Both the position numbers and the translations under genes were made by a program. A DNA stretch of 64,000 bases from positions 3,023,501 through 3,087,500 of the forward strand of contig NZ_CP136628.1 of the NCBI RefSeq assembly GCF_032918005.1. Reading direction: 5' to 3'. The notes beneath the pieces are model-generated. The model did not search any database. It was given only the letters and a program-made list of their open reading frames with translations, and was not told where the DNA came from. This document shows positions 8,112-64,000 of this stretch, one piece after another (position 1 is the stretch's first letter; every line of letters starts with the position of its first letter). The stretch comes from Bradyrhizobium sp. NDS-1 (GTDB lineage: Bacteria > Pseudomonadota > Alphaproteobacteria > Rhizobiales > Xanthobacteraceae).

Positions 8112-8277
8112 CGTGATCCTGTTCAGCGGGGCGTTGGGCAATGCGCGGGTGGATCTACCATACTTGGTCCGGCGATACTCGGGATATCACTTTGTGAACA
8201 GATGGCCCTCTTGCGGGCGGCGAAAGCGGCCGCGAGGCCCCAGGCCGGGATGCTACCCGCCAACACCGATGCGGCCG

Positions 8278-8307
8278 GTCAAGCGCAATCTTTACAGTGT
8301 CAAAATG
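8278..8307. promoter_or_regulatory. Third copy of the TetR operator-like element
   Basis: The 29 bp at 8278-8306 match 10146-10174 at 26 positions in the same orientation. Both contain ATCTTTAC-N3-GTCAA(A/T)AT, a degenerate form of the perfect palindrome ATCTTTAC-N3-GTAAAGAT at 10103-10121. It lies upstream of the leftward yciB-like gene and overlaps the 3' end of the small gene at 8292. Confidence 0.55.
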
Positions 8308-8549
8308 ATGTAGGCAGCCTGCAAGAGCTCAATCGCAGCGAGCGCTTGCTCGGATGCCTCCTCGGCGATGGCAGCCCAGGGCAGACGAGAGAGAACCGGC
8401 AGCGTGCCGGCGAACAGGATGCCGGCGACGAGCAAGATGCCGCCGTTGAAGATTGGCTGTCCGTCCGGCGGCCGCCGCACCATCTGCGGCGTGAGCGCGG
8501 CGCAGGTCAGGACGAGGACGGCCAGGCAATCTGCAGTGATCGAGGGCAT
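8292..8549 (-). CDS. Small membrane protein, hypothetical
   Basis: An 85-residue protein with two likely membrane spans (ADCLAVLVLTCAALT and GGILLVAGILFAGTLPVL) and an amphipathic Ala/Glu-rich C-terminal segment. No family recognised. The start at 8549 is preceded by a weak AGAAGAG. It lies downstream of the carotenoid oxygenase across a palindromic repeat, and its stop codon lies inside the operator-like element at 8278-8307. Confidence 0.45.
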   Translation of the reverse strand: MPSITADCLAVLVLTCAALTPQMVRRPPDGQPIFNGGILLVAGILFAGTLPVLSRLPWAAIAEEASEQALAAIELLQAAYIILTL

Positions 8550-8560
8550 GTGAAACTCTT

Positions 8561-8687
8561 CTGTCATTCCGGGCGAGGCGAAGCGTCGAGCTACGGTGCG
8601 CAATTGCACATCTGAGAATCCATTTCGCTACGCGTAATGCTGCCAATGGATCCGGGCTCGCGACTTCGTCGCGCCCCGGAATGACAG
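8561..8687. repeat. Palindromic intergenic repeat, family C
   Basis: Terminal arms CTGTCATTCCGGG and CCCCGGAATGACAG with an inner inverted pair AATCCATT/AATGGATC. It fills the gap between the small membrane protein and the carotenoid oxygenase, ending 3 bp from the oxygenase stop codon. Confidence 0.8.
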
Positions 8688-8690
8688 CTC

Positions 8691-10088
8691 CTATGCCGCC
8701 CCCACCCAATTGCCGTGAAAACCATCGGGCACGCGGTGGCCGAGCTGCACCAGCGCGACGGGTCCCGCCTCGACATCGGTGGCGTTGAACACGGCAAGGT
8801 CGCTGCGGTTCTCCCGCGCGCGCCAGACCACCGCCAGCAGCCAGCCATCGCCCTCAGTCGCATCCTTCGATCGTTCGACGAATACCGGCTCGGAGATGGT
8901 GTCGCCGGCCGGCAGCAGATAATGGCCGAGCCGCCGGCCGTAGCCGTCGACATGGACGACGCCGGAGAGCGCGCCGAACATCGCCAGCCGCGGGTTGGCG
9001 CAGGCGTACCAGCCGTGACGGTTTCTCAGCCCGGCGCGGCGGTCGTCGATGCGCGGGAATTCGCCGGTGAGATCGTCCAGATAGGTCTGCTGGAAGCGGT
9101 CGGTATTGCCTGAGAGGTCGAAGGTCCAGCGGCAATGCCGGGCGCGCGACTTCTCCGGATCGGTTGGACGGCCGTCGGGATGGGGAAACAGCGGCGCCTC
9201 CTCGAACTGCATGACGTCGGCGACGATGCGGTTCCCGTCCTCCCACGCATTCATGACGTGGAAGACGTAGCAGGCCTCAGCTCGAAACCAGACGATCTCC
9301 TTGGTCGTGCCGCTCCGCTTCATCACGCCGACATAGGCGCCCTTGTCCGGCTCCCAGGCATAGGGGGGCCGTCCGCTCATTGCGCGCTCCATGCTGCCGG
9401 TAATGGGGAGGATCGGAAACAGCACGTGGTTCGCGGTGACGATGAAGTCGTGCACCATGCTGGCATAGGGCGCCTCGAACCGCTCGATGCGCGTCGCCTT
9501 GCCGGAGGCATCGATCGAGCCGTAGGAGAGGGCAGGCGTCAGCGGACCTGCCGCGTTGTAGCCGAAGAACACCAGCTCACCGGTCACAGGGTCGATCTTC
9601 GGATGCGCCGTGAAACTGCCGGCGACGCGTCCCTGGTAATCGTGATAGCCGCGCGTTGCCAGCGTGCCCGGCTCGATCTCGGTCGGCAGATGCGCTTCTT
9701 CAAGCGCCAGCAGCTTGCCGGCATGGAAGATGATGTTGGTGTTGGCAACGCCGCCATCGGTGAGATCGGCGGGAGCATCCGGCAGCTTGCGGCCGAAGCC
9801 GCCGAACAGGGCGCGGCCGGCATCATGCTCGGCGAGCCATTTCGGCGTGCGGACCCAGCGATTGCGATAGCTGGCGCGGCCGTTCTCGAGATGGAAGGCG
9901 TGCAGCATGCCATCGCCGACGAACCAATGCGCGCCGGGAGATTCGAACTGCGGATTGGGGCCGTTGCGATAGAGCACGCCGTTCAGCTCGCGCGGCAATT
10001 CGCCGATGATCTTCAGGAAGGGCGCGTCCGCTTCGAACGGGATCGGCGCGATATTGTTGCGGCGCTCGGTGACGGAGTCGTGCTGCAC
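8691..10088 (-). CDS. Carotenoid cleavage oxygenase family protein
   Basis: A 465-residue non-heme iron dioxygenase of the carotenoid/lignostilbene cleavage family. The four Fe(II)-binding histidines are visible at about H162 (TAHPKID), H213 (MVHDFIV), H277 (VFHVMNAWEDG) and H458 (GFHGNW). The N-terminal segment GVLYRNGPNPQF is also family-typical. It would split a conjugated C=C bond in a carotenoid, apocarotenoid or stilbene; the substrate is unknown. GGAGG precedes the ATG. Its promoter carries a perfect palindrome (10103-10121) over the transcription start, and the divergent TetR gene is the obvious regulator. Confidence 0.9.
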   Translation of the reverse strand: MQHDSVTERRNNIAPIPFEADAPFLKIIGELPRELNGVLYRNGPNPQFESPGAHWFVGDGMLHAFHLENGRASYRNRWVRTPKWLAEHDAGRALFGGFGRKLPDAPADLTDGGVANTNIIFHAGKLLALEEAHLPTEIEPGTLATRGYHDYQGRVAGSFTAHPKIDPVTGELVFFGYNAAGPLTPALSYGSIDASGKATRIERFEAPYASMVHDFIVTANHVLFPILPITGSMERAMSGRPPYAWEPDKGAYVGVMKRSGTTKEIVWFRAEACYVFHVMNAWEDGNRIVADVMQFEEAPLFPHPDGRPTDPEKSRARHCRWTFDLSGNTDRFQQTYLDDLTGEFPRIDDRRAGLRNRHGWYACANPRLAMFGALSGVVHVDGYGRRLGHYLLPAGDTISEPVFVERSKDATEGDGWLLAVVWRARENRSDLAVFNATDVEAGPVALVQLGHRVPDGFHGNWVGAA

Positions 10089-32573: not shown

Positions 32574-32741
32574 AGCTGGTTCGGACGTTTCGATTCCCGC
32601 CCATCGTCGCGCCTGCGACGGCTTATTCGAGAAGCGACGAGGTGCCCGCGATCGGCGTGCTTGCACGGCGTCGCCGTCGTCGTTGGCGTGATCATCATCG
32701 TGTTGTGGATGCGATACGAACGTTCGTTCACATCGTGCGCG

Positions 32742-39751: not shown

Positions 39752-39911
39752 GAGGGCGCAATCCTCGTTTTGGATTGGCCCCGGCGGACTCTAGAAAATA
39801 CGCCTTCCAGGGCGTATATTCTGATTTGGTCGTCCGGCCCGGGGCGCAATCTCGGGTTCGATGGCTAGGGATCGGCAGCGTTCCAGCGCCGTCGGTCCCG
39901 CTAATTCTCGG

Positions 39912-39984
39912 CTGCCCTGCCGGGATTAGAACCCGGACCTCTCCGCGTGTAACAGCGAGCGTCCTACCATTAGACTACAGGGCA
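39912..39984 (-). tRNA. tRNA gene with 8-nt anticodon loop, anticodon uncertain
   Basis: The minus strand gives acceptor TGCCCTG/CAGGGCA (7 bp), D-arm GTCT-AATGGTA-GGAC, T-arm CCGGG-TTCTAAT-CCCGG and a discriminator G. The anticodon arm is odd: CTCGC/GCGGA with one mismatch and one wobble around the 8-nt loop TGTTACAC. Readings are TAC (Val-like, with an inserted base) or GTT (Asn-like). No CCA is encoded. It is either a decayed tRNA or an unusual functional one. The rest of 39752-40387 holds a terminator and a GTGCCG-CTTCGCAA-CGGCAC hairpin near 40329, but no gene. Confidence 0.7.
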
Positions 39985-56463: not shown

Positions 56464-57903
56464 ATGTCAATTGACCGTCGCCAAGCGCTGGCCGTGTTCA
56501 GCGCCGCCGCATCGTCGCTTGTGATGTCCCGCGCGGCACGTGCCGAGTTTGACGGTCCTGTCGTCAGGGCACTGGAGGGAGGCGAAGATTTCTGGCTCGC
56601 CCAGGACGCCTATATCTATGGCTATCCGCTTGTCACGATGGAAATGACCCGCCGCGTGATGACCAACGTCGCGACGCCGCAGGGCACGCGCGCGCCGATG
56701 GGGCAATTCGTCAAGCTGCGCAAATACCCTGATGCCAGCTTCAAGGACGTCACCGCACCCAACGCAGATACCCTTTACACGACCGCCTGGATCGACGTCG
56801 GAGACGAGCCCTGGGTCCTGAGCATGCCTGATATGAAGGACCGTTATTTCCTGTTTCCGATGCTGGACGGCTGGACCAACGTCTTCCAGGTCCCGGGCAA
56901 GCGCACCACCGGCACCAAGGCGCAGACCTACGCGATCACCGGCCCTGGCTGGAAGGGAACGCTTCCCGCCGGTGTCAAGGAATACAAATCGCCCACGAGC
57001 ATGGTGTGGATTCTGGGCCGAATTTATTGCACCGGCACGCCGGAAGACTACGCGGCCGTGCATGCGGCACAGGACGAGTTCAAGCTCTTCCCTCTCAGCG
57101 CGTACGGCAAGTCCTATACGCCGCCGGCAGGCAAGGCCGATGCGTCGATCGACATGAAGACGGCCGTTCGCGATCAGGTCAACCGCATGGACGCCGCCGC
57201 CTATTTCACTCTTCTGGCGCTATTGATGAAGCGCAATCCGCCGGCCGCCGCGGATACGGCTGAGGTCGCCAAATTCGCGAAGATCGGTCTTGTCCCCGGC
57301 AAGGATTTCGACGCGAGCAAATTCGATGCTGCCTTCGCCAAGCGGGTCCCGCAGGTGGCATTCGACCGCATCATGCTCCAGTTCAAGGTCAACAAGGCGA
57401 TCAGGAATGTCAACGGTTGGGCCTTCGACGCTGAAGCCGGCGTCTACGGCACCAATTACTTCAACCGCGCCCTGGTCACGGCCATCGGCCTTGGCGCCAA
57501 CCGAATTCAGGATGCGTGCTATCCGACATCGCAGAAGGACGCCGACGGGAAAGAGTATGTCGGCAGCAACAAGTACGTCATGCGCTTTCCGAAGGGGCAG
57601 CTTCCTCCGGTCGGCGGCTTCTGGTCGCTGACGATGTATGACGAGCACTATTTCTTCGTTGCCAATCCGATCAACCGCCAGTCGATCAGCGCCCGCCAGA
57701 ACCTCAAAGTCAATCCGGACGGTTCGGTCGACCTCTACATCCAGAAGGACAATCCCGGCTCCGACAAGGAGAGCAACTGGCTTCCTGCGCCCGCGGGCAA
57801 GTTCGTGCTGATGTTGCGGATGTACTGGCCCAACGAGAAGTCGCCTTCGATCATCAACGGGACCTGGAAGCCGCCGCCGGTCCGGCAGGTGACGAGCACC
57901 TAG
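56464..57903 (+). CDS. Tat-exported DUF1254/DUF1214 protein
   Basis: A 479-residue protein with a twin-arginine type signal (DRRQALAVFSAAASSLVMSR, cleavage after ARA). DUF1254 covers about 50-180 (DAYIYGYPLVTMEMTRRVMT, APNADTLYTTAWIDVGDEPW, MPDMKDRYFLFPMLDGWTNV). DUF1214 covers about 350-470 (ANRIQDACYPTS, GSNKYVMRFPKGQLPPVGGF, MLRMYWPNEKSPSIINGTW). These periplasmic proteins are common in soil bacteria and have no agreed function. AGGGAGGG about 7 bp before the ATG at 56464 fixes the start. The 56285-56463 gap shows nothing. Confidence 0.88.
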   Translation: MSIDRRQALAVFSAAASSLVMSRAARAEFDGPVVRALEGGEDFWLAQDAYIYGYPLVTMEMTRRVMTNVATPQGTRAPMGQFVKLRKYPDASFKDVTAPNADTLYTTAWIDVGDEPWVLSMPDMKDRYFLFPMLDGWTNVFQVPGKRTTGTKAQTYAITGPGWKGTLPAGVKEYKSPTSMVWILGRIYCTGTPEDYAAVHAAQDEFKLFPLSAYGKSYTPPAGKADASIDMKTAVRDQVNRMDAAAYFTLLALLMKRNPPAAADTAEVAKFAKIGLVPGKDFDASKFDAAFAKRVPQVAFDRIMLQFKVNKAIRNVNGWAFDAEAGVYGTNYFNRALVTAIGLGANRIQDACYPTSQKDADGKEYVGSNKYVMRFPKGQLPPVGGFWSLTMYDEHYFFVANPINRQSISARQNLKVNPDGSVDLYIQKDNPGSDKESNWLPAPAGKFVLMLRMYWPNEKSPSIINGTWKPPPVRQVTST

Positions 57904-58003: not shown

Positions 58004-58657
58004 TCACACCGTCTCCAGCTGCTCCGCCGCCCGCTTCTTCTTCGCCTTGGACTGCCCGAGCAGCGGGCCTGCCGTGAGTGCCGCCGTATCGGCGACGGCC
58101 GGATCGCGCGAGATCATGGCGGCGACGATCGCGCCATCGATGATGAGGCCGAGCTGGTGCGCGAGCACTGCGGGCTCGGCCGATCCCAATTCACTGGCGA
58201 GCTTCTCGATGTGGCCGAGCACGATCTTCTTGTGCTTCAGCGCGATGCTGCGGAACTGTTTTGCGTCCTTGTCGTGCTCGCCCACCGCATTGATGAAGGG
58301 GCAGCCGTAGAAGCGCTCTTCCGCGAACCAGCTCTTCAGCGCCGGGAAGATGCGCGTCAGTTTCGCCTGCGCGTCGCCGCCGCCTTCTTCCATGGCGCCG
58401 ATGAACCAGTCGCGCCATTGCTTGCCTTCGCTCTCGAGCACGGCGTTGACGAGATTGGTCTTGGAGCCGAACAGTTTATAGAGCGTGGTCTTGGCGGTGC
58501 CGGCCTCCTCGATGATGGCATCGATGCCAGTGGCGTTAATGCCGTTCTTGCAGAAGAGGTGCGTGGCGGCATTGAGCAGGCGCCCGCGCGCGGATTCGTC
58601 GTCGCCGGCACCGGCGTGCGGCGAACTGGATTTCTTCTTCGATGACGTCTTTGCCAT
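58004..58657 (-). CDS. TetR family transcriptional regulator
   Basis: A 217-residue regulator. After a Lys/Ser-rich head comes the HTH (GRLLNAATHLFCKNGINATG, EEAGTAKTTLYKLFGSKTNL) and a ligand domain with a C-terminal Lys-rich tail. The segment SWFAEERFYGCPFINAVGEH resembles TetR_C regulators. Start at 58657; a TTG at 58666 is possible. It is divergent from the OsmC operon and palindromes lie in the gap (58764-58775; 58857-58868), so it may repress that operon. Confidence 0.85.
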   Translation of the reverse strand: MAKTSSKKKSSSPHAGAGDDESARGRLLNAATHLFCKNGINATGIDAIIEEAGTAKTTLYKLFGSKTNLVNAVLESEGKQWRDWFIGAMEEGGGDAQAKLTRIFPALKSWFAEERFYGCPFINAVGEHDKDAKQFRSIALKHKKIVLGHIEKLASELGSAEPAVLAHQLGLIIDGAIVAAMISRDPAVADTAALTAGPLLGQSKAKKKRAAEQLETV

Positions 58658-58763
58658 AGGCTGCAACTTACTCGCAGCTGCGCGGCATCATCAAGCCGCA
58701 TCTCTTTCGCGCCGAAAAGATTCGCATCGGCGAACCCATCTGCATCGCCTTTGAGCAGAGCCC

Positions 58764-58832: not shown

Positions 58833-58848
58833 TGGCACGTCCTATGCA
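58833..58848 (+). promoter_or_regulatory. Sigma-54 promoter of the OsmC operon
   Basis: TGGCAC-GTCCT-ATGCA: GG and GC of the -24/-12 elements are 10 bp apart as required, with a single departure (ATGC for TTGC). It lies 55 bp before the OsmC start. The near-palindrome GACCG-TT-CGGTA (58857-58868) covers the expected start of transcription and may be an operator. Confidence 0.65.
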
Positions 58849-58903
58849 AGGAAACAGACCGTTCGGTATCCTACCGATTTCCACTTCTGCGAGGGAGAAG
58901 AAG

Positions 58904-59446
58904 ATGACTGCCGTCGTTCAAAAGACAGTGCTGACGGGGTGCCTCGCGCCCATCGACAAGAACGGCCTCGAGCAACTGATCGCGAGCGGCAAGGCCAATC
59001 CGAAGGTCGTCAAGACCTTGAAATGCAAGACGGTTGCGGAGGGTAAATTCCGCCACGCCAACTACATCCGCAATCTGCCGCCCTACATCGTCGACGAACC
59101 GCCGGGGCTGCTGGGCGACGATACCGCGCCCAATCCGTCCGAAGCCTCGCTCGCCGCGCTCGGCTCCTGCCTCGCGGTCGGCCTGCACGCCAACGCCGTG
59201 CACCGCGGCTGGATCGTCAACAAGCTCGAGCTCGAGCTCGAAGGCGACCTCAACATCACCGCGGTCTGGGGCACCGGCGATACTTCGGACAAGCCGGTCG
59301 GCTTCACCGATGTGCGCGTCAAGGTCGACATGGAATGCGAGGGCATCGCGCAGGACGAGATCAACGCGCTGGTCGCCCACGTGAAGAAATGGTCGCCGGT
59401 CGCCAACACCTTCACCCGGCCGGTCAATCTCGAGGTCGGCATCTAG
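58904..59446 (+). CDS. OsmC family protein
   Basis: A 180-residue OsmC-type protein with NPSEASLAALGSCLAVGLHA, which has the conserved catalytic Cys of the GSC motif near residue 87, and a C-terminal EGIAQDEINALVAHVKKWSP region. OsmC/Ohr proteins reduce hydroperoxides; Cys1 is present, and whether a second redox Cys serves is unclear (C13, C38, C139 exist). GGGAGAAG before the ATG at 58904 fixes the start. It heads an operon with an acyl-CoA dehydrogenase-like gene 35 bp downstream and a rhodanese gene. Confidence 0.85.
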   Translation: MTAVVQKTVLTGCLAPIDKNGLEQLIASGKANPKVVKTLKCKTVAEGKFRHANYIRNLPPYIVDEPPGLLGDDTAPNPSEASLAALGSCLAVGLHANAVHRGWIVNKLELELEGDLNITAVWGTGDTSDKPVGFTDVRVKVDMECEGIAQDEINALVAHVKKWSPVANTFTRPVNLEVGI

Positions 59447-59481
59447 CCGAGAGCAATCACGACACGGTGCGGGAGACGATC

Positions 59482-60594
59482 ATGGGTTCACTGGCTTTAT
59501 CGCGGGTCGACGTTCTGGATCAGCCCGCACCGTCCATTGCAGGTGAGGTGGCGCGGATCGCGCGGGAGCAACTCGCGCCGCTCGCGGTCGGCATCGACGA
59601 CGGTTCGGTCTATCCGGCCGAGGTGCTGCGTGCGTTCGGCGCGGTCGGCGCCTGGGGCAGTCACGTGCCGCACGAAGGTCCCGCCGATCTGCGCTGCGCG
59701 ATCCAGGCGATGGCGGCGATCGGGGAGGTCTGCGGCGCCACGGCCTTCATGGCCTGGTGCCAGAACACGCTGGTCTGGTACGCGGCGAATTCCACCAACG
59801 TGAAGCTGGCCAAGCGTTTTGGCGATGCATTCTCGACGGGGCGCGTGCTCGGTGGCACCGGTCTCTCGAATCCGATGAAGAGCTTTTTCGGCATTGAGAA
59901 GCTCAAGCTGAAGGGGCGCAAGGTCGAGGGCGGCTACGTCGTGCGTGGCGCGCTGCCCTGGGTCTCCAACCTCGGTCCCGACCATTATTTCGGCACCATC
60001 TTCGAGCGCGAGGACGACGAGGGCACCGTCATGTTCCTCGCCGACTGCTCGGACCCCGCGATCACGCTGACGCCGTGCAAGCCATTCATGGCGATGGACG
60101 GCACCGGCACCTATGGCGTGCAGTTCCGCGACGCCTTCGTGCCGGACGAACTGATCCTCGCCGATCCCGCCGGCCCCTTCGTGAAGAAGATCCGCGCCGG
60201 CTTCATCCTGCTGCAGGCCGGCATGGCGCTCGGCCTCATCAAGGACTGCATCAACATCATGGACGAGGTCGACGGTTCGCTCGGCCACATCAACCGCTAT
60301 CTGCCGCAGCAGCCGGTGCATTTCCGCGAGCTCGCCGCCGAGCTCGAGGCCGAGACCATGGCGCTGGCACGCGATCCCTACAACGAGGAGGAGACCTACT
60401 GGCGCAAGGTGATCGCGCTCAGGCTTCGCGCGGGCGAGGCCAGCGTCGCGGCGGCGCATGCGGCGATGCTGCATTGTGGCGCCCGCGGCTACTTGAAGAG
60501 CCACCGCGCGCAGCGGCGCCTGCGCGAGGCCTATTTCGTCGCGATCGTCACGCCGGCCACCAAGCAGCTGCGCAAGATGCTCGCCGATTTCTGA
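59482..60594 (+). CDS. Acyl-CoA dehydrogenase-like flavoprotein (SfnB/DszC-like possible)
   Basis: A 370-residue protein with acyl-CoA dehydrogenase fold: N-terminal helices, a middle beta domain (GGTGLSNPMKSFFGIEKLKL, MAMDGTGTYGVQFRDAFVPD) and C-terminal helices. The usual catalytic Glu region is not obvious, so it may be a flavin-dependent monooxygenase of the SfnB/DszC type rather than a dehydrogenase; this is inference from its setting among sulfur genes. GGGAGACG 3 bp before the ATG at 59482 supports the start. Second gene of the OsmC operon. Confidence 0.8.
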   Translation: MGSLALSRVDVLDQPAPSIAGEVARIAREQLAPLAVGIDDGSVYPAEVLRAFGAVGAWGSHVPHEGPADLRCAIQAMAAIGEVCGATAFMAWCQNTLVWYAANSTNVKLAKRFGDAFSTGRVLGGTGLSNPMKSFFGIEKLKLKGRKVEGGYVVRGALPWVSNLGPDHYFGTIFEREDDEGTVMFLADCSDPAITLTPCKPFMAMDGTGTYGVQFRDAFVPDELILADPAGPFVKKIRAGFILLQAGMALGLIKDCINIMDEVDGSLGHINRYLPQQPVHFRELAAELEAETMALARDPYNEEETYWRKVIALRLRAGEASVAAAHAAMLHCGARGYLKSHRAQRRLREAYFVAIVTPATKQLRKMLADF

Positions 60595-60658
60595 GTTCCA
60601 AACCTTAGAGCTCTACGAGTCCACCCGAAGACCCACCAACCTCAACGGAGAGGCTGCC

Positions 60659-61537
60659 ATGACTGACGTTCTGATCACTGCCGTCGAACTCGCCGATCTC
60701 TTGAAGACCGAGCCGTGTGTCGTCATCGACACCCGCAATCCCGATGCTTACGCCGCCGGGCACCTGCCGGGCGCCGTGAACGTGCACGAGATCTTTACGT
60801 TCCTCGCGACCTCGACGCCGGAAGGCATGGCCGAGCTCAAGACGAAATTCGCCGATGCGTTCGGCGCTGCCGGCCTTTCGGGCAAGGAGACGGCGGTGGT
60901 CTACGAGCAGTCGATGAACTCCGGCTTCGGCCAGTCCTGCCGCGGCTATTACCTGCTCACCATGCTCGGCTATCCCAAGGTGAAGGTGCTGCATGGCGGC
61001 TTCGACGCCTGGTCGGGTGCGGGCTTCCCGGTAACCAAGGAGGTGCCGATGCCGGCGAAGGCGTCGTTCGCGATCGTGCCCGAAGCCGGCGAGATCCTGA
61101 TCGACGCCAAGACCATGCTCGCCGCCGTCGGCAAGCCCGGCATCGCGATCCTCGACGTCCGCGACGTCGACGAGTGGATCGGCGACAGTTCGTCCCCGTA
61201 CGGCAAGGATTTCTGCCCGCGCAAGGGCCGGATTCCGGGCGCCGTGTGGCTGGAATGGTATCGCATGATGAAGCCTACAGCCGAAGGCCCGCGCTTCAAA
61301 TCCAAGGACGAGATTCTGGCGGAATGCGCCACCGTCGGCATCTCGCCGACGACGCCGGTCTACCTCTACTGCTTCAAGGGCGCGCGCGCCTCGAACACGT
61401 TCCTGGCACTGAAGAACGCAGGCGTGAAGGACGTGCGGATGTATTTCGGCTCCTGGAACGAATGGTCGCGCGATCCGTCGCTGCCGATCGAGCAGGGGCT
61501 GCCGATGGCACCGGGTGTGACGACAAAGGCGGCCTGA
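60659..61537 (+). CDS. Double-rhodanese sulfurtransferase
   Basis: A 292-residue protein of two rhodanese domains. The first (1-130) opens VVIDTRNPDAYAAGHLPGAV but has YEQSMNSGFGQSCRGYYLL where the active-site loop should be, so it is probably inactive. The second (150-280) has CFKGARASN near residue 240 with the persulfide Cys. It resembles 3-mercaptopyruvate/thiosulfate sulfurtransferases. GGAG about 10 bp before the ATG. Third gene of the OsmC operon; the family B repeat follows. Confidence 0.88.
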   Translation: MTDVLITAVELADLLKTEPCVVIDTRNPDAYAAGHLPGAVNVHEIFTFLATSTPEGMAELKTKFADAFGAAGLSGKETAVVYEQSMNSGFGQSCRGYYLLTMLGYPKVKVLHGGFDAWSGAGFPVTKEVPMPAKASFAIVPEAGEILIDAKTMLAAVGKPGIAILDVRDVDEWIGDSSSPYGKDFCPRKGRIPGAVWLEWYRMMKPTAEGPRFKSKDEILAECATVGISPTTPVYLYCFKGARASNTFLALKNAGVKDVRMYFGSWNEWSRDPSLPIEQGLPMAPGVTTKAA

Positions 61538-61544
61538 GCGCGCG

Positions 61545-61680
61545 CCTCGTCCTTCGAGACGACCGCTTCGCGGTCTCCTCAGGATGAGGCTAAGCGGCAC
61601 CGGTGTCTGTTGATACTGTTGCCGCGCACTCCGTCCTCATCCTGAGGAGCCCGCCTAAAGCGGGCGTCTCGAAGGATGGG
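61545..61680. repeat. Palindromic intergenic repeat, family B, entering a coding end
   Basis: CGTCCTTCGAGACG...CCTCAGGATGAGG and CCTCATCCTGAGG...CGTCTCGAAGGATG, as at 6011-6145. Its right part overlaps the last codons and stop (61655-61657) of the leftward sigma-54 activator gene. Confidence 0.9.
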
Positions 61681-63601
61681 CCGATTGCGGACGAGGCGCG
61701 ATCCCAAGCGCCTTGATCCGCGAGGCCAGCGTGGTCGGCTTGATGTCCAGCATCTCCGCCGCGCCGCCGGGACCGAACACTTTCCCTGTGCAGGCTTCGA
61801 GTGCGGCGAGGATGTTGGCGCGCTCGTAGTCGCGCATCTCGGACGAGGTCATGACGGTCGGCCGTGCATCGGCCTTCTGGCGTGCCGTGCCGATCGTGGG
61901 CTGCGCGCCGGAGGAGTCCGGCAGGTCGATTCGCAAACGGCCGTTCTGCGACAGGATCGCGGCGCGCTCGATCACGTTCTGCAGTTCGCGGACATTGCCG
62001 GGCCAGTCGTAGCGGGTGAGCCGCCGCGCATCGCCTTCCGACAGACGCAGGTTGGATTTCAACGCCTTGCTCTCGCGCGTCAAAAAATGCTGGGCGAGCA
62101 GGGGGATGTCCTCGCGCCGTTCGCGCAGAGGCACCGTCTCGATCGGGAATACGTTGAGGCGGAAATAGAGGTCCTCGCGAAAGCGACCGCGCTGGACCTC
62201 CTGCTTGAGGTCGCGGTTGGTCGCGGCGATGACGCGGACGTCGACGGCGCGCGTGCGTTCCTGGCCGACGCGCTCGAAATTGCCCTCCTGCAGCACGCGC
62301 AGCAGCTTGCCCTGTAATTCGAGCGGAATTTCGCCGACCTCGTCGAGGAACAGCGTGCCGCCGTCGGCGAGCTCGAACCGGCCGATGCGGTCGCGCGTTG
62401 CGCCGGTGAAGGCGCCGCGGACATGGCCGAAGAACTCGCTCTCGAACAATTCCCGCGGGATCGCCGCGCAGTTGACGCGGATCAGCGGCCGGTCGCTGCG
62501 GGTGGAATCCTCGTGGATGGCGCGCGCGATCAGCTCCTTGCCGGTACCGGACTCCCCGGTGATCATCACCGCCGCCGTGGTCGGCGCCACCAGCTTGACC
62601 TGGCGCAGCGTCTTCTGGATCGCCTCGCTTCCACCGATGATGCCGCGCGGATTGGTCTCGATGCGGATTTCCTCCTGAAGATAGGCATTCTCAAGTTCGA
62701 GCCGCTCGCGCAGGCGGTCGACCTCTGCTAGCGCGGCATGCAGCTTCTCGTCGGCCTCGCGCCGCTGGCTGACATCGCGAAACACGACCACGGCGCCGAC
62801 CACGACGCCGCGGTCGCGGATCGGCGTGGACGTGTATTCGACCCACGCCGGAGAACCGTCCTTTCGCCAGAATACTTCGCCGTCGACCTGGTGCACGGCG
62901 CCGTCGCGGAACGCCGCGTAGATCGGGCAATCATGGTTGTGATAGTGCCGGCCGTCGTGGTGAGTGTGGTGCACGATCGGATGGATCTCCTTGCCGACCA
63001 GCTCCTCGGCGGTCCAGCCCAGCATGCGTTCGGCCGCGGGATTCACGAAGGTGGTCTTGCCCTCGGCATTGACGCCATAGATGCCTTCGCCGGCGGCGCG
63101 CAGAATCAGCTGGTTCTCGCGCTCGATGTCCTGGAACACGCGCTCGACCCGCTGCCAGGTCGCGATCCCACCTCGCATGTGGTCCTCGGCGGCGGCATCG
63201 ACATTGCGGCGGCGGCGCGCCTCGAGATCGGTGAGGACGAGCAGCACCAGGGTACGGTCGCCGTGGCTGACGAGGCAACCTGACGTTTCGAGCCGGAGCT
63301 CCTGGCCAGTGGCGTACCGAGGGGCCAGCGCCGTGGTCCAGTAGGCGCCCTTGTGCAGCACGGCCTGGGTGAACACGGTGAGTGCGGGAAGCTGGCCGTT
63401 GTGAAGCGTGCTGGCCTTGGTCTGCCGCAACAGGGCTCGGTCGTAGCCGAGCAGGGAGCAGGCGGCCGGATTGGCATCGATGATCTGGTCGCCGTAGGGG
63501 TCGACCAGCAGCGTCGCCTCGACGGAGGACTCGAAGGCCGCAATTCGTGGGTCGATGGTCCGGGCCGCGTCGTCGTGGCCAGGCATTGGCGTCGTTGCCA
63601 T
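61655..63601 (-). CDS. Sigma-54-dependent activator, PAS-PAS-AAA+-Fis
   Basis: A 648-residue regulator. PAS 1 covers about 20-125; PAS 2 about 165-280 with a His-rich loop ([18 protein letters not shown]). A linker coiled coil follows, then the AAA+ domain with Walker A GESGTGKE (about 349-356), GAFTGA (about 396-401) for sigma-54 contact and [12 protein letters not shown] as Walker B. The C-terminus is a Fis HTH ([20 protein letters not shown]). No receiver domain, so the PAS domains sense the signal. Start at 63601 with GAGAT upstream; a codon at 63661 would add 20 residues. The final PSRRPL comes from a palindromic repeat. Divergent from the gene at 63761. Confidence 0.92.
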
Positions 63602-63653
63602 TGCGAAATCTCGTAATTCGGCTACGAATTTTCGTATATCACGATTTTTCGTA
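63602..63653. promoter_or_regulatory. Three tandem palindromic sites, probable enhancer (UAS)
   Basis: TGCGAAATCTCGTA (63602-63615), TACGAATTTTCGTA (63623-63636) and CACGATTTTTCGTA (63640-63653). The shared pattern is TACGAA-A/T-TTCGTA. Centres are 21 and 17 bp apart. They lie 75-125 bp before the sigma-54 promoter at 63712, the usual enhancer distance, and directly before the activator's own start. Confidence 0.65.
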
Positions 63654-63711
63654 GCGACCAAGCTTCACTGAAAGCGTTGCGTCATCAATGCCGTGGACGG
63701 CAGAGCCGCCG

Positions 63712-63727
63712 TGGCATGCTCCTTGCG
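63712..63727 (+). promoter_or_regulatory. Sigma-54 promoter of the gene at 63761
   Basis: TGGCAT-GCTCC-TTGCG matches the -24/-12 consensus TGGCAC-N5-TTGC with one change. It lies 33 bp before the start codon, downstream of the tandem palindromes. Confidence 0.75.
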
Positions 63728-63760
63728 TAATTCCTCCTGCAACGACGCGCAGGAGGTCCG

Positions 63761-64000
63761 ATGTCCACGTTCGACAATCCGTTCGATCCCAACCGCAACC
63801 TCCGTGATGGCTGCGCCTGTGGCCAGCATCGCTCGGCAGCCGAGCACGAGCAGGCGACCACGGCGCTTCGCTGCGAGCCGGCCGAGAGCGAGGACAAACG
63901 CTACGAGGGCGTCGTTGCCTCCGCCGTCATGCGCGCGATGTTTCCGCAGGACGTGGCGCGGCGCGCCTTCCTGAAATCGGTTGGTGCCTCCACCGCGCTT
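63761..64000 (+). CDS. Tat-dependent substrate-binding protein, NrtA/SsuA-like (3' truncated by window)
   Basis: The frame stays open to the window end, giving the first 80 residues. The Tat motif ARRAFLKSVGAS sits at residues 66-77, after an unusually long 65-residue head that contains DGCACGQHRSAAEH (Cys at 18, 20 and 38). I recall this layout in nitrate/sulfonate/taurine-type ABC transporter substrate-binding proteins of Bradyrhizobium, but the binding domain itself is outside the window. AGGAGG 5 bp before the ATG, and the sigma-54 promoter 33 bp upstream, support the start. Presumably first gene of a transporter operon. Confidence 0.65.
   Translation, partial: MSTFDNPFDPNRNLRDGCACGQHRSAAEHEQATTALRCEPAESEDKRYEGVVASAVMRAMFPQDVARRAFLKSVGASTAL

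Follow-up and report, generated by a model that had tools for sequence, protein, structure and literature searches.

At the right-hand end of a 64,000-nucleotide stretch of the Bradyrhizobium sp. NDS-1 genome (the window; genome positions 3023501-3087500 of a 7.65-Mb single contig), we identified two neighboring transcription units that we propose form a cyanate island. The left unit encodes an OsmC-family protein, an acyl-CoA-dehydrogenase-fold (ACAD-fold) flavoprotein and a double-domain rhodanese (here called the trio), and the right unit encodes an ABC importer and a cyanase (cynABDS). Coupling of the trio to cyanase is very likely; that the trio makes cyanate, most likely from thiocyanate, is the reading we favor, at a probability of roughly 0.5. 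An earlier interpretation made from the DNA letters alone (the sequence-only reading) had described a sigma-54-controlled organosulfur module. The module is real and conserved, with sigma-54-type promoters on both transcription units, but its assignment to sulfone or sulfonate use did not hold: because cynABD-cynS follows the activator gene, the substrate axis is cyanate. Sulfur may still play a part, given that the module is accompanied by a rhodanese or a persulfide-dioxygenase-like protein.

All five proteins named in the sequence-only reading were located where it had placed them, by open reading frames (ORFs) and family matches. The osmC gene (58904..59446, plus strand; PF02566, 69.6 bits) is followed on the same strand by the genes for the flavoprotein (59482..60594; PF02771, 30.2 bits vs a cut-off of 22.9) and the rhodanese (60659..61537; PF00581, 125.5 bits in two stretches). 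Next, on the minus strand, is a gene for a CynF-type PAS-AAA+ sigma-54 activator (61655..63601; PF00158, Sigma54_activat, 247 bits, with PAS domains), whose Fis-type helix-turn-helix was recognized by eye alone and is not among the Pfam matches at E<=1e-3. The listed activator ORF begins at TTG 63661 and engulfs three activator sites, which a start at ATG 63601 keeps intergenic; because TTG 63661 would put these repeats within the gene, ATG 63601 is probably the true start. The plus-strand cynA gene encodes a Tat-type NrtA/CmpA-like substrate-binding protein, and its first 240 bases (63761..64000) reach the window edge. We fetched genome positions 3081501-3101500 (L001) to read past position 64000. 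In L001 coordinates, cynA continues to 7143 and is followed by cynB (to 8131), cynD (8136-9059) and cynS (9075-9563), so that the order of ORFs beyond the window edge is Tat substrate-binding protein, permease, ATPase and a 162-residue protein. The last of these is a cyanase, with 154 bits against TIGR00673 (cut-off 113) and matches to both Pfam domains of cyanase, including PF02560; the permease matches TIGR01183 above its cut-off (232 bits). The nearest solved relatives of the binding protein are nitrate and bicarbonate transport proteins, and it is close to NrtA (2g29). The sequence-only reading had itself named a neighboring gene set tied to an unrelated substrate as the outcome that would speak against it, and what lies past 64000 comes close to that.

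The right half of the island is already known from published work. According to the accessible text on Pseudomonas pseudoalcaligenes CECT5344, its cynF-cynABDS cluster shares a sigma-54-type activator gene divergent from cynABDS, a sigma-54 promoter before cynA, an ABC importer and a cyanase (PMC6627978). Here, likewise, the cyanase gene lies downstream of an NrtA-type ABC importer, the sigma-54 activator gene is divergent from cynA, a -24/-12 promoter precedes cynA and three sites are intergenic. Judged by position, the window activator would be the counterpart of CynF (BN5_0438) of CECT5344. The words 'OsmC', 'acyl-CoA dehydrogenase', 'sulfurtransferase' and 'rhodanese' each occur 0 times in the main text of that paper, and the neighbors that its accessible text states for the cyn cluster are glutamate synthase, hemE and IS4 transposase genes (PMC6627978). 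The coupling of the trio to cyanase appears to be new as far as the open-access literature goes, subscription journals lying outside our scope. In that literature, cyanase, rhodanese and OsmC never occurred together, nor did cyanate, rhodanese and OsmC, or thiocyanate, OsmC and acyl-CoA dehydrogenase; co-mentions of thiocyanate with OsmC concerned unrelated subjects, by title.

The linkage is close within the genus. Among 117 genomes sampled, cynS occurs in 113 and the flavoprotein in 79 (76-100% identity, main matches). A cynS gene was found in 77 of these 79 genomes: in 74 the two genes share a contig, 1.8-19.8 kb from start to start, and in three cynS is on a different contig of a fragmented assembly. 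The two flavoprotein genomes with no cynS match, G045 and G097, are both incomplete. Cyanase can do without the trio: 36 of the 113 genomes with cynS gave no match to the flavoprotein.

We surveyed the architecture of 114 loci, 109 of which have a flavoprotein of >40% identity. Most commonly (29 loci) the trio is followed by cynF on the other strand and then by cynABDS; in 23 loci cynABDS comes directly after the trio, with no cynF. Seven loci consist of OsmC-flavoprotein-rhodanese-CynS with no transporter, from which we argue that the trio may supply cyanate inside the cell. Conservation counts here and below are not independent: loci overlap between collections (e.g. L002 and L089 come from the same genome) and belong mostly to one genus, 91 distinct upstream sequences occur among 97, and the list of relatives comprises the best-scoring 80 of 572, almost all of them members of the genus. 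Four loci (L113, L115, L116 and L035) have a CynA-like binding-protein gene directly after the rhodanese gene and separate from cynABDS, the product of which may bind a different anion.

The flavoprotein family was also found in at least 2 of 337 genomes of a class sample (own genome included), at least 13 of 249 of an order sample (five being in the genus) and at least 16 of 398 of a phylum sample, with 5 to 8 candidates scored per genome. Leaving the genus aside, all eight flavoprotein genomes of the order sample have OsmC next to the flavoprotein, and cyanase is present in seven of the eight vs 43 of 234 genomes without the flavoprotein (Fisher p 7.6e-5, uncorrected for kinship). The cyanase gene lies <=10 kb from the flavoprotein gene in four of the seven (G305, G517, G578 and G619). 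The partners in these runs vary. L038 and L139 have ABC genes-OsmC-flavoprotein-rhodanese-CynS, with an additional ferredoxin reductase and 2Fe-2S ferredoxin in L139; in L037 the order is that of L038, but CynS comes after a DsbA-fold protein and a ferredoxin reductase. In L040, L042 and L140, a GAF-type sigma-54 activator accompanies OsmC, the flavoprotein and a rubredoxin-reductase fusion, to which L040 and L042 add a Blh-like metallo-beta-lactamase-fold (MBL) protein. The sulfur partner can be either a rhodanese or this Blh-like protein, and the electron partners are rubredoxin and its reductase in some loci and ferredoxin reductase, sometimes accompanied by ferredoxin, in others. The model for the bifunctional sulfurtransferase/dioxygenase Blh (NF040641) matches the MBL protein of L042 with 383 bits along the model's C-terminal part. 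This score is under the 625-bit cut-off, and the N-terminal part is absent from the protein; the window variant has a rhodanese instead.

Related clusters are also carried on plasmids, where 25 of 28 flavoprotein records also carry OsmC (genus totals, not matched record by record). OsmC adjoins the flavoprotein in all six plasmid loci read, and three of these runs include cynS (Acetobacter, Marinobacter and Caballeronia). The Caballeronia run, which is unannotated and was read by blastp, is activator-OsmC-flavoprotein-rubredoxin reductase-CynABDS-MBL protein. Azospirillum has an OsmC of the trio kind without a flavoprotein beside it, and Neisseria and Moraxella plasmids have the flavoprotein without a trio-type OsmC, judged by genus totals. 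Genomes G772 and G974 lack cyanase and have a distant flavoprotein whose partner is an AhpD-like gene rather than OsmC. Such a pairing of a distant flavoprotein relative with an AhpD-like protein, in genomes without cyanase, lies at 9369-11137 of L142, where there is also an ABC transporter, and at 8786-10521 of L141.

Both sigma-54 promoters of the sequence-only reading were recovered. The pattern TGGCAYGNNNNWTGC matches the window at the -24/-12 elements of osmC (TGGCACGTCCTATGC, 58833..58848, plus strand) and cynA (TGGCATGCTCCTTGC, 63712..63727, plus strand) and nowhere else, where 0.20 matches were expected and 1 of 100 shuffles gave two or more; it was composed after both sites had been seen. 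Its three tandem TACGAA-N2-TTCGTA-type sites before the second promoter were recovered as well. A scan of the window with TACGAANNTTCGTA at <=2 mismatches gave four matches (63602, 63623, 63640 and 32715; 0.55 expected; none of 100 shuffles reaching four), three of them packed into 52 bases before cynA: TGCGAAATCTCGTA (63602..63615), the perfect TACGAATTTTCGTA (63623..63636) and CACGATTTTTCGTA (63640..63653). The stray TACGAACGTTCGTT at 32715-32728 is one mismatch from the activator site and ~31 kb from the array. Of 55 cynF-cynA stretches, the 39 that exceed 116 bases all have CynF-type sites: 38, with three or more sites each, show the three-site array with the same spacing, and L116 has two sites. 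The remaining 16 stretches are site-less and all <=116 bases, cut by estimated gene starts. The 39 include L016, a locus without the trio.

The osmC promoter is equally constant. In 92 upstream regions (three architecture groups, OsmC >=70% identity, best match in 260 bp kept), the -24/-12 match lies 52-72 bases before the start codon in 92 of 92, with a variable spacer; the scan had no shuffled control, and its weight lies in the constant place. Dependence of osmC on sigma-54 is, in our judgement, highly likely. Among nine outgroup regions scanned, four (L038, L040, L042 and L140) have loose sigma-54-like matches before the module and five (L037, L039, L041, L139 and L142) have none, the stretch in L037 being mostly intragenic.

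The sequence-only reading had one activator serving both promoters, an idea that we rejected. CynF is absent from 29 of the 79 flavoprotein-bearing genus genomes (E<=1e-150, 10 candidates scored per genome), and was again absent from 11 genus genomes and the incomplete G045 when all candidates were scored at E<=1e-100. The osmC promoter is kept in nine loci from CynF-less genomes (L002, L003, L007, L008, L012, L013, L014, L021 and L143). Moreover, none of 100 osmC upstream regions has a CynF-type site at <=2 mismatches, and two have one at 3 mismatches. The looser copy that had been pointed out at 58712-58726 is present as sequence, but exceeds the limit of 2 mismatches, is conserved only in part (by eye) and was discarded as a conserved activator site. 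CynF would thus work on cynA, and a different activator would be required for osmC, at least in genomes that lack CynF; because the osmC promoter is conserved where CynF is absent, CynF is likely not its sole activator.

Two elements that the sequence-only reading did not contain bear on the control of osmC. One is a TetR-family regulator gene (58004..58657, minus strand; PF00440, 49.5 bits) divergent from osmC, and the other an inverted repeat, AAACAGACCGTTCGGTAT (58852..58869), over the predicted transcription start. The repeat, of the form ACAGA-n-CGTTC-n-GT, occurs 5-9 bp after the -12 element in 97 of 100 osmC upstream regions (one degenerate) and is a perfect palindrome, ATACAGAACGTTCTGTAT, in three loci; the window copy is the sole match in the genome at one mismatch. 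In 101 of 109 flavoprotein loci a TetR gene is transcribed divergently from the unit, and we therefore read the repeat as probably the operator of this regulator, placed to block initiation. In L037, L038 and L139, the three exceptions without the repeat, OsmC is within a run that starts with ABC genes, and in L038 a sigma-54-like promoter precedes the first gene of the run.

A possible enhancer site of the osmC promoter is an NtrC-like box, TGCATC-N5-TGAGCA (58741..58757, plus strand), with 3 mismatches to the enterobacterial consensus. In 79 of 97 loci the best match to an NtrC site falls 90-94 bp upstream of the -24 element of osmC, and the best match is within 3 mismatches in 71 of 97 upstream regions vs 9% of single-base shuffles, the loci being mostly of one genus. 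The control was poor: the 320 bp upstream of three P-II genes of the same genome hold no NtrC site within 3 mismatches, and one of these regions holds TGCCCGACGCATGAGCA, 4 mismatches from the consensus. We therefore treat the NtrC assignment as a weak lead only.

The residues of the flavoprotein set it apart from ordinary members of its fold. In the YEG segment, the position of the catalytic Glu reads VTP (Thr357) in all ten aligned sequences, the register beyond residue 355 having been extended by eye from the HMMER alignment; the residue preceding Arg238, the isovaleryl-type Glu position, is Ile in the window protein. We take these to be the catalytic Glu positions of acyl-CoA dehydrogenases. 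The segment corresponding to TEPxxGSD in those enzymes reads SNPMK. A fold search put ordinary ACAD-fold enzymes on top, with isovaleryl- and short-chain acyl-CoA dehydrogenases at 13-21% identity among the best 50 matches. No monooxygenases of this fold are among these 50, which excludes nothing, and sequence links to group D flavin monooxygenases of the HsaA/DszC type are weak (2rfq, 5lvu). Relatives carry rubredoxin or ferredoxin reductases; none adjoins the window's trio. Membership in the SfnB family, as proposed by the sequence-only reading, was rejected: SfnB shares the ACAD superfamily, but TIGR04022 (family cut-off 430.9 bits) has no match to the window protein at E<=1e-3, and the distant AhpD-linked cousin in L142 scores 46.6 bits. 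Invariant cysteines in the trio are C89 of OsmC (11 sequences), C84 and C93 of the flavoprotein, and C238 in the C-terminal catalytic Cys loop of the rhodanese, CFKGAR, itself invariant (9 of 9 sequences). The module also delimits a subfamily of ACAD-fold flavoproteins, labeled 'acyl-CoA dehydrogenase' in the plasmid records read, that should not use the usual mechanism.

We hypothesize that the two units act on one pathway. On the right, CynF would bind the three sites and, with sigma-54 polymerase, drive cynABDS; cyanate would be imported, and cyanase would yield ammonium and CO2. On the left, the divergent TetR protein would sit on the start site and block the sigma-54 promoter, and its release, together with a nitrogen-linked activator (NtrC being a guess), would allow expression of the osmC, flavoprotein and rhodanese genes. 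The flavoprotein, with OsmC as thiol partner, might then oxidize a small C,N,S anion, most likely thiocyanate. The rhodanese, or in relatives the persulfide-dioxygenase-like protein, would receive the sulfur as sulfane sulfur, and the cyanate would be passed to cyanase. The recurring partners comprise a small-anion importer, a thiol protein, a flavoprotein that lacks the usual dehydrogenase base, cyanase and a sulfur acceptor, joined in some lineages by a redox feed, and thiocyanate is proposed because it is the simplest compound to require the full set.

A known enzyme, thiocyanate dehydrogenase (TcDH), has the products proposed here. As described in the accessible part of the source, the TcDH of Thioalkalivibrio, Guyparkeria and Thiohalobacter converts thiocyanate to cyanate and zero-valent sulfur, its loci also encode a sigma-54 activator along with a putative acceptor protein for sulfur, and the genomes of two halophiles among these organisms have cyanase (PMC6504805). 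TcDH is, however, a Tat-exported copper beta-propeller enzyme (PMC6504805, accessible part), whereas the candidate here is an ACAD-fold flavoprotein with OsmC, presumably cytoplasmic. Family scans of the module's proteins returned no TcDH family, a genome-wide search not having been made. The trio could represent a second, flavin-based route from thiocyanate to cyanate and sulfane sulfur, built on OsmC and a glutamate-less ACAD-fold flavoenzyme and unrelated to TcDH or thiocyanate hydrolase, a proposal that we regard as speculative. In this proposal, rubredoxin or ferredoxin would feed the flavoenzyme in some lineages, the sulfur would go to a rhodanese or persulfide dioxygenase, and cyanase would consume the cyanate. 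If true, the genes for such a route are present in 79 of 117 genus genomes and on alpha-, beta- and gammaproteobacterial plasmids. To our knowledge, the source of the cyanate broken down by cyanase in soil bacteria is mostly open, and a conserved set, found in plant-associated bacteria as well as on plasmids, that travels with cyanase and is apparently able to make cyanate would offer a direct answer that can be tested.

Several observations weigh against thiocyanate-derived cyanate as the product of the trio. The choice of thiocyanate draws only on chemistry and neighboring genes and is tentative, and the literature searched holds no experiment or enzyme assay on the trio. Cyanase is an unreliable marker of thiocyanate use, according to the accessible part of one study (PMC6504805). 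Outside the genus, cyanase is far from the module in G680, G486 and G640, the outgroup genome G682 has OsmC and the flavoprotein with no cyanase, and three of the six plasmid loci (Pseudosulfitobacter, Rhodobacteraceae SC52 and Methylocystis) have no cynS nearby. No electron-transfer gene of the kinds present in the relatives was seen in the genus loci that were read. Finally, in G640 the OsmC-flavoprotein genes are near cytochrome bd and nitrilase genes, a setting that fits cyanide equally.

Cyanide handling is for this reason a serious rival, if an unlikely one: the flavoprotein would oxidize cyanide to cyanate, or the rhodanese would turn cyanide into thiocyanate, with cyanase clearing the product. 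Rhodanese chemistry fits the conversion of cyanide to thiocyanate. In G640, the ABC-OsmC-flavoprotein run (L041 6875-9332, L149 370-7409) is flanked by cytochrome bd oxidase genes on one side and, on the other, by a nitrilase cluster that presumably resembles Nit1C (cyanide assimilation). Yet HCN crosses membranes, and the module is accompanied in L037-L039, L041 and L139 by ABC importers that suit an anion. The persulfide-dioxygenase-like partners point to sulfur release, and in CECT5344 cyanate and cyanide assimilation are independent pathways, as far as the accessible text describes them (PMC6627978).

A further alternative, which we judge quite improbable, is that the trio makes no cyanate and guards against or repairs the damage that cyanate does, such as carbamoylated thiols. 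OsmC relatives are thiol peroxidases, and with the tight linkage to cyanase this would suit a protective role. The redox partners and the second importer of some relatives look catabolic, however, and 36 of 113 cynS genomes of the genus manage with no flavoprotein match.

Organosulfur use under a single SfnR-like activator is very unlikely. It could draw on the rhodanese, the ACAD fold and the substrate-binding proteins next to OsmC in L037, L139 and L156, which score below cut-off with SsuA models; against it stand the cynS gene downstream, the lack of an SfnB match, the 29 of 79 flavoprotein genomes without the activator, and the family matches of the window's run, which include no sulfonate or sulfone oxygenase family. 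Just as unlikely is adjacency of the trio and cyn genes by chance or shared mobility with no functional coupling, as might be suggested by trios without cyn genes nearby (L036, L117-L120) and by plasmid-borne clusters, given that single runs recur in several classes with swapped partners and the association holds outside the genus.

Other features of the region were recorded in passing. The sole tRNA call of the window, on the minus strand at 39910-39984, is a tRNA-Cys with anticodon ACA, which may be degenerate or misread. Upstream of the TetR gene lies a gene for a DUF1254/DUF1214 protein (56464-57900), retained in the same-species locus L015. On the far side of the island, a PEP-mutase-family gene and a LysR gene (L001 9550-11456) adjoin cynS and are retained there in many genus loci.

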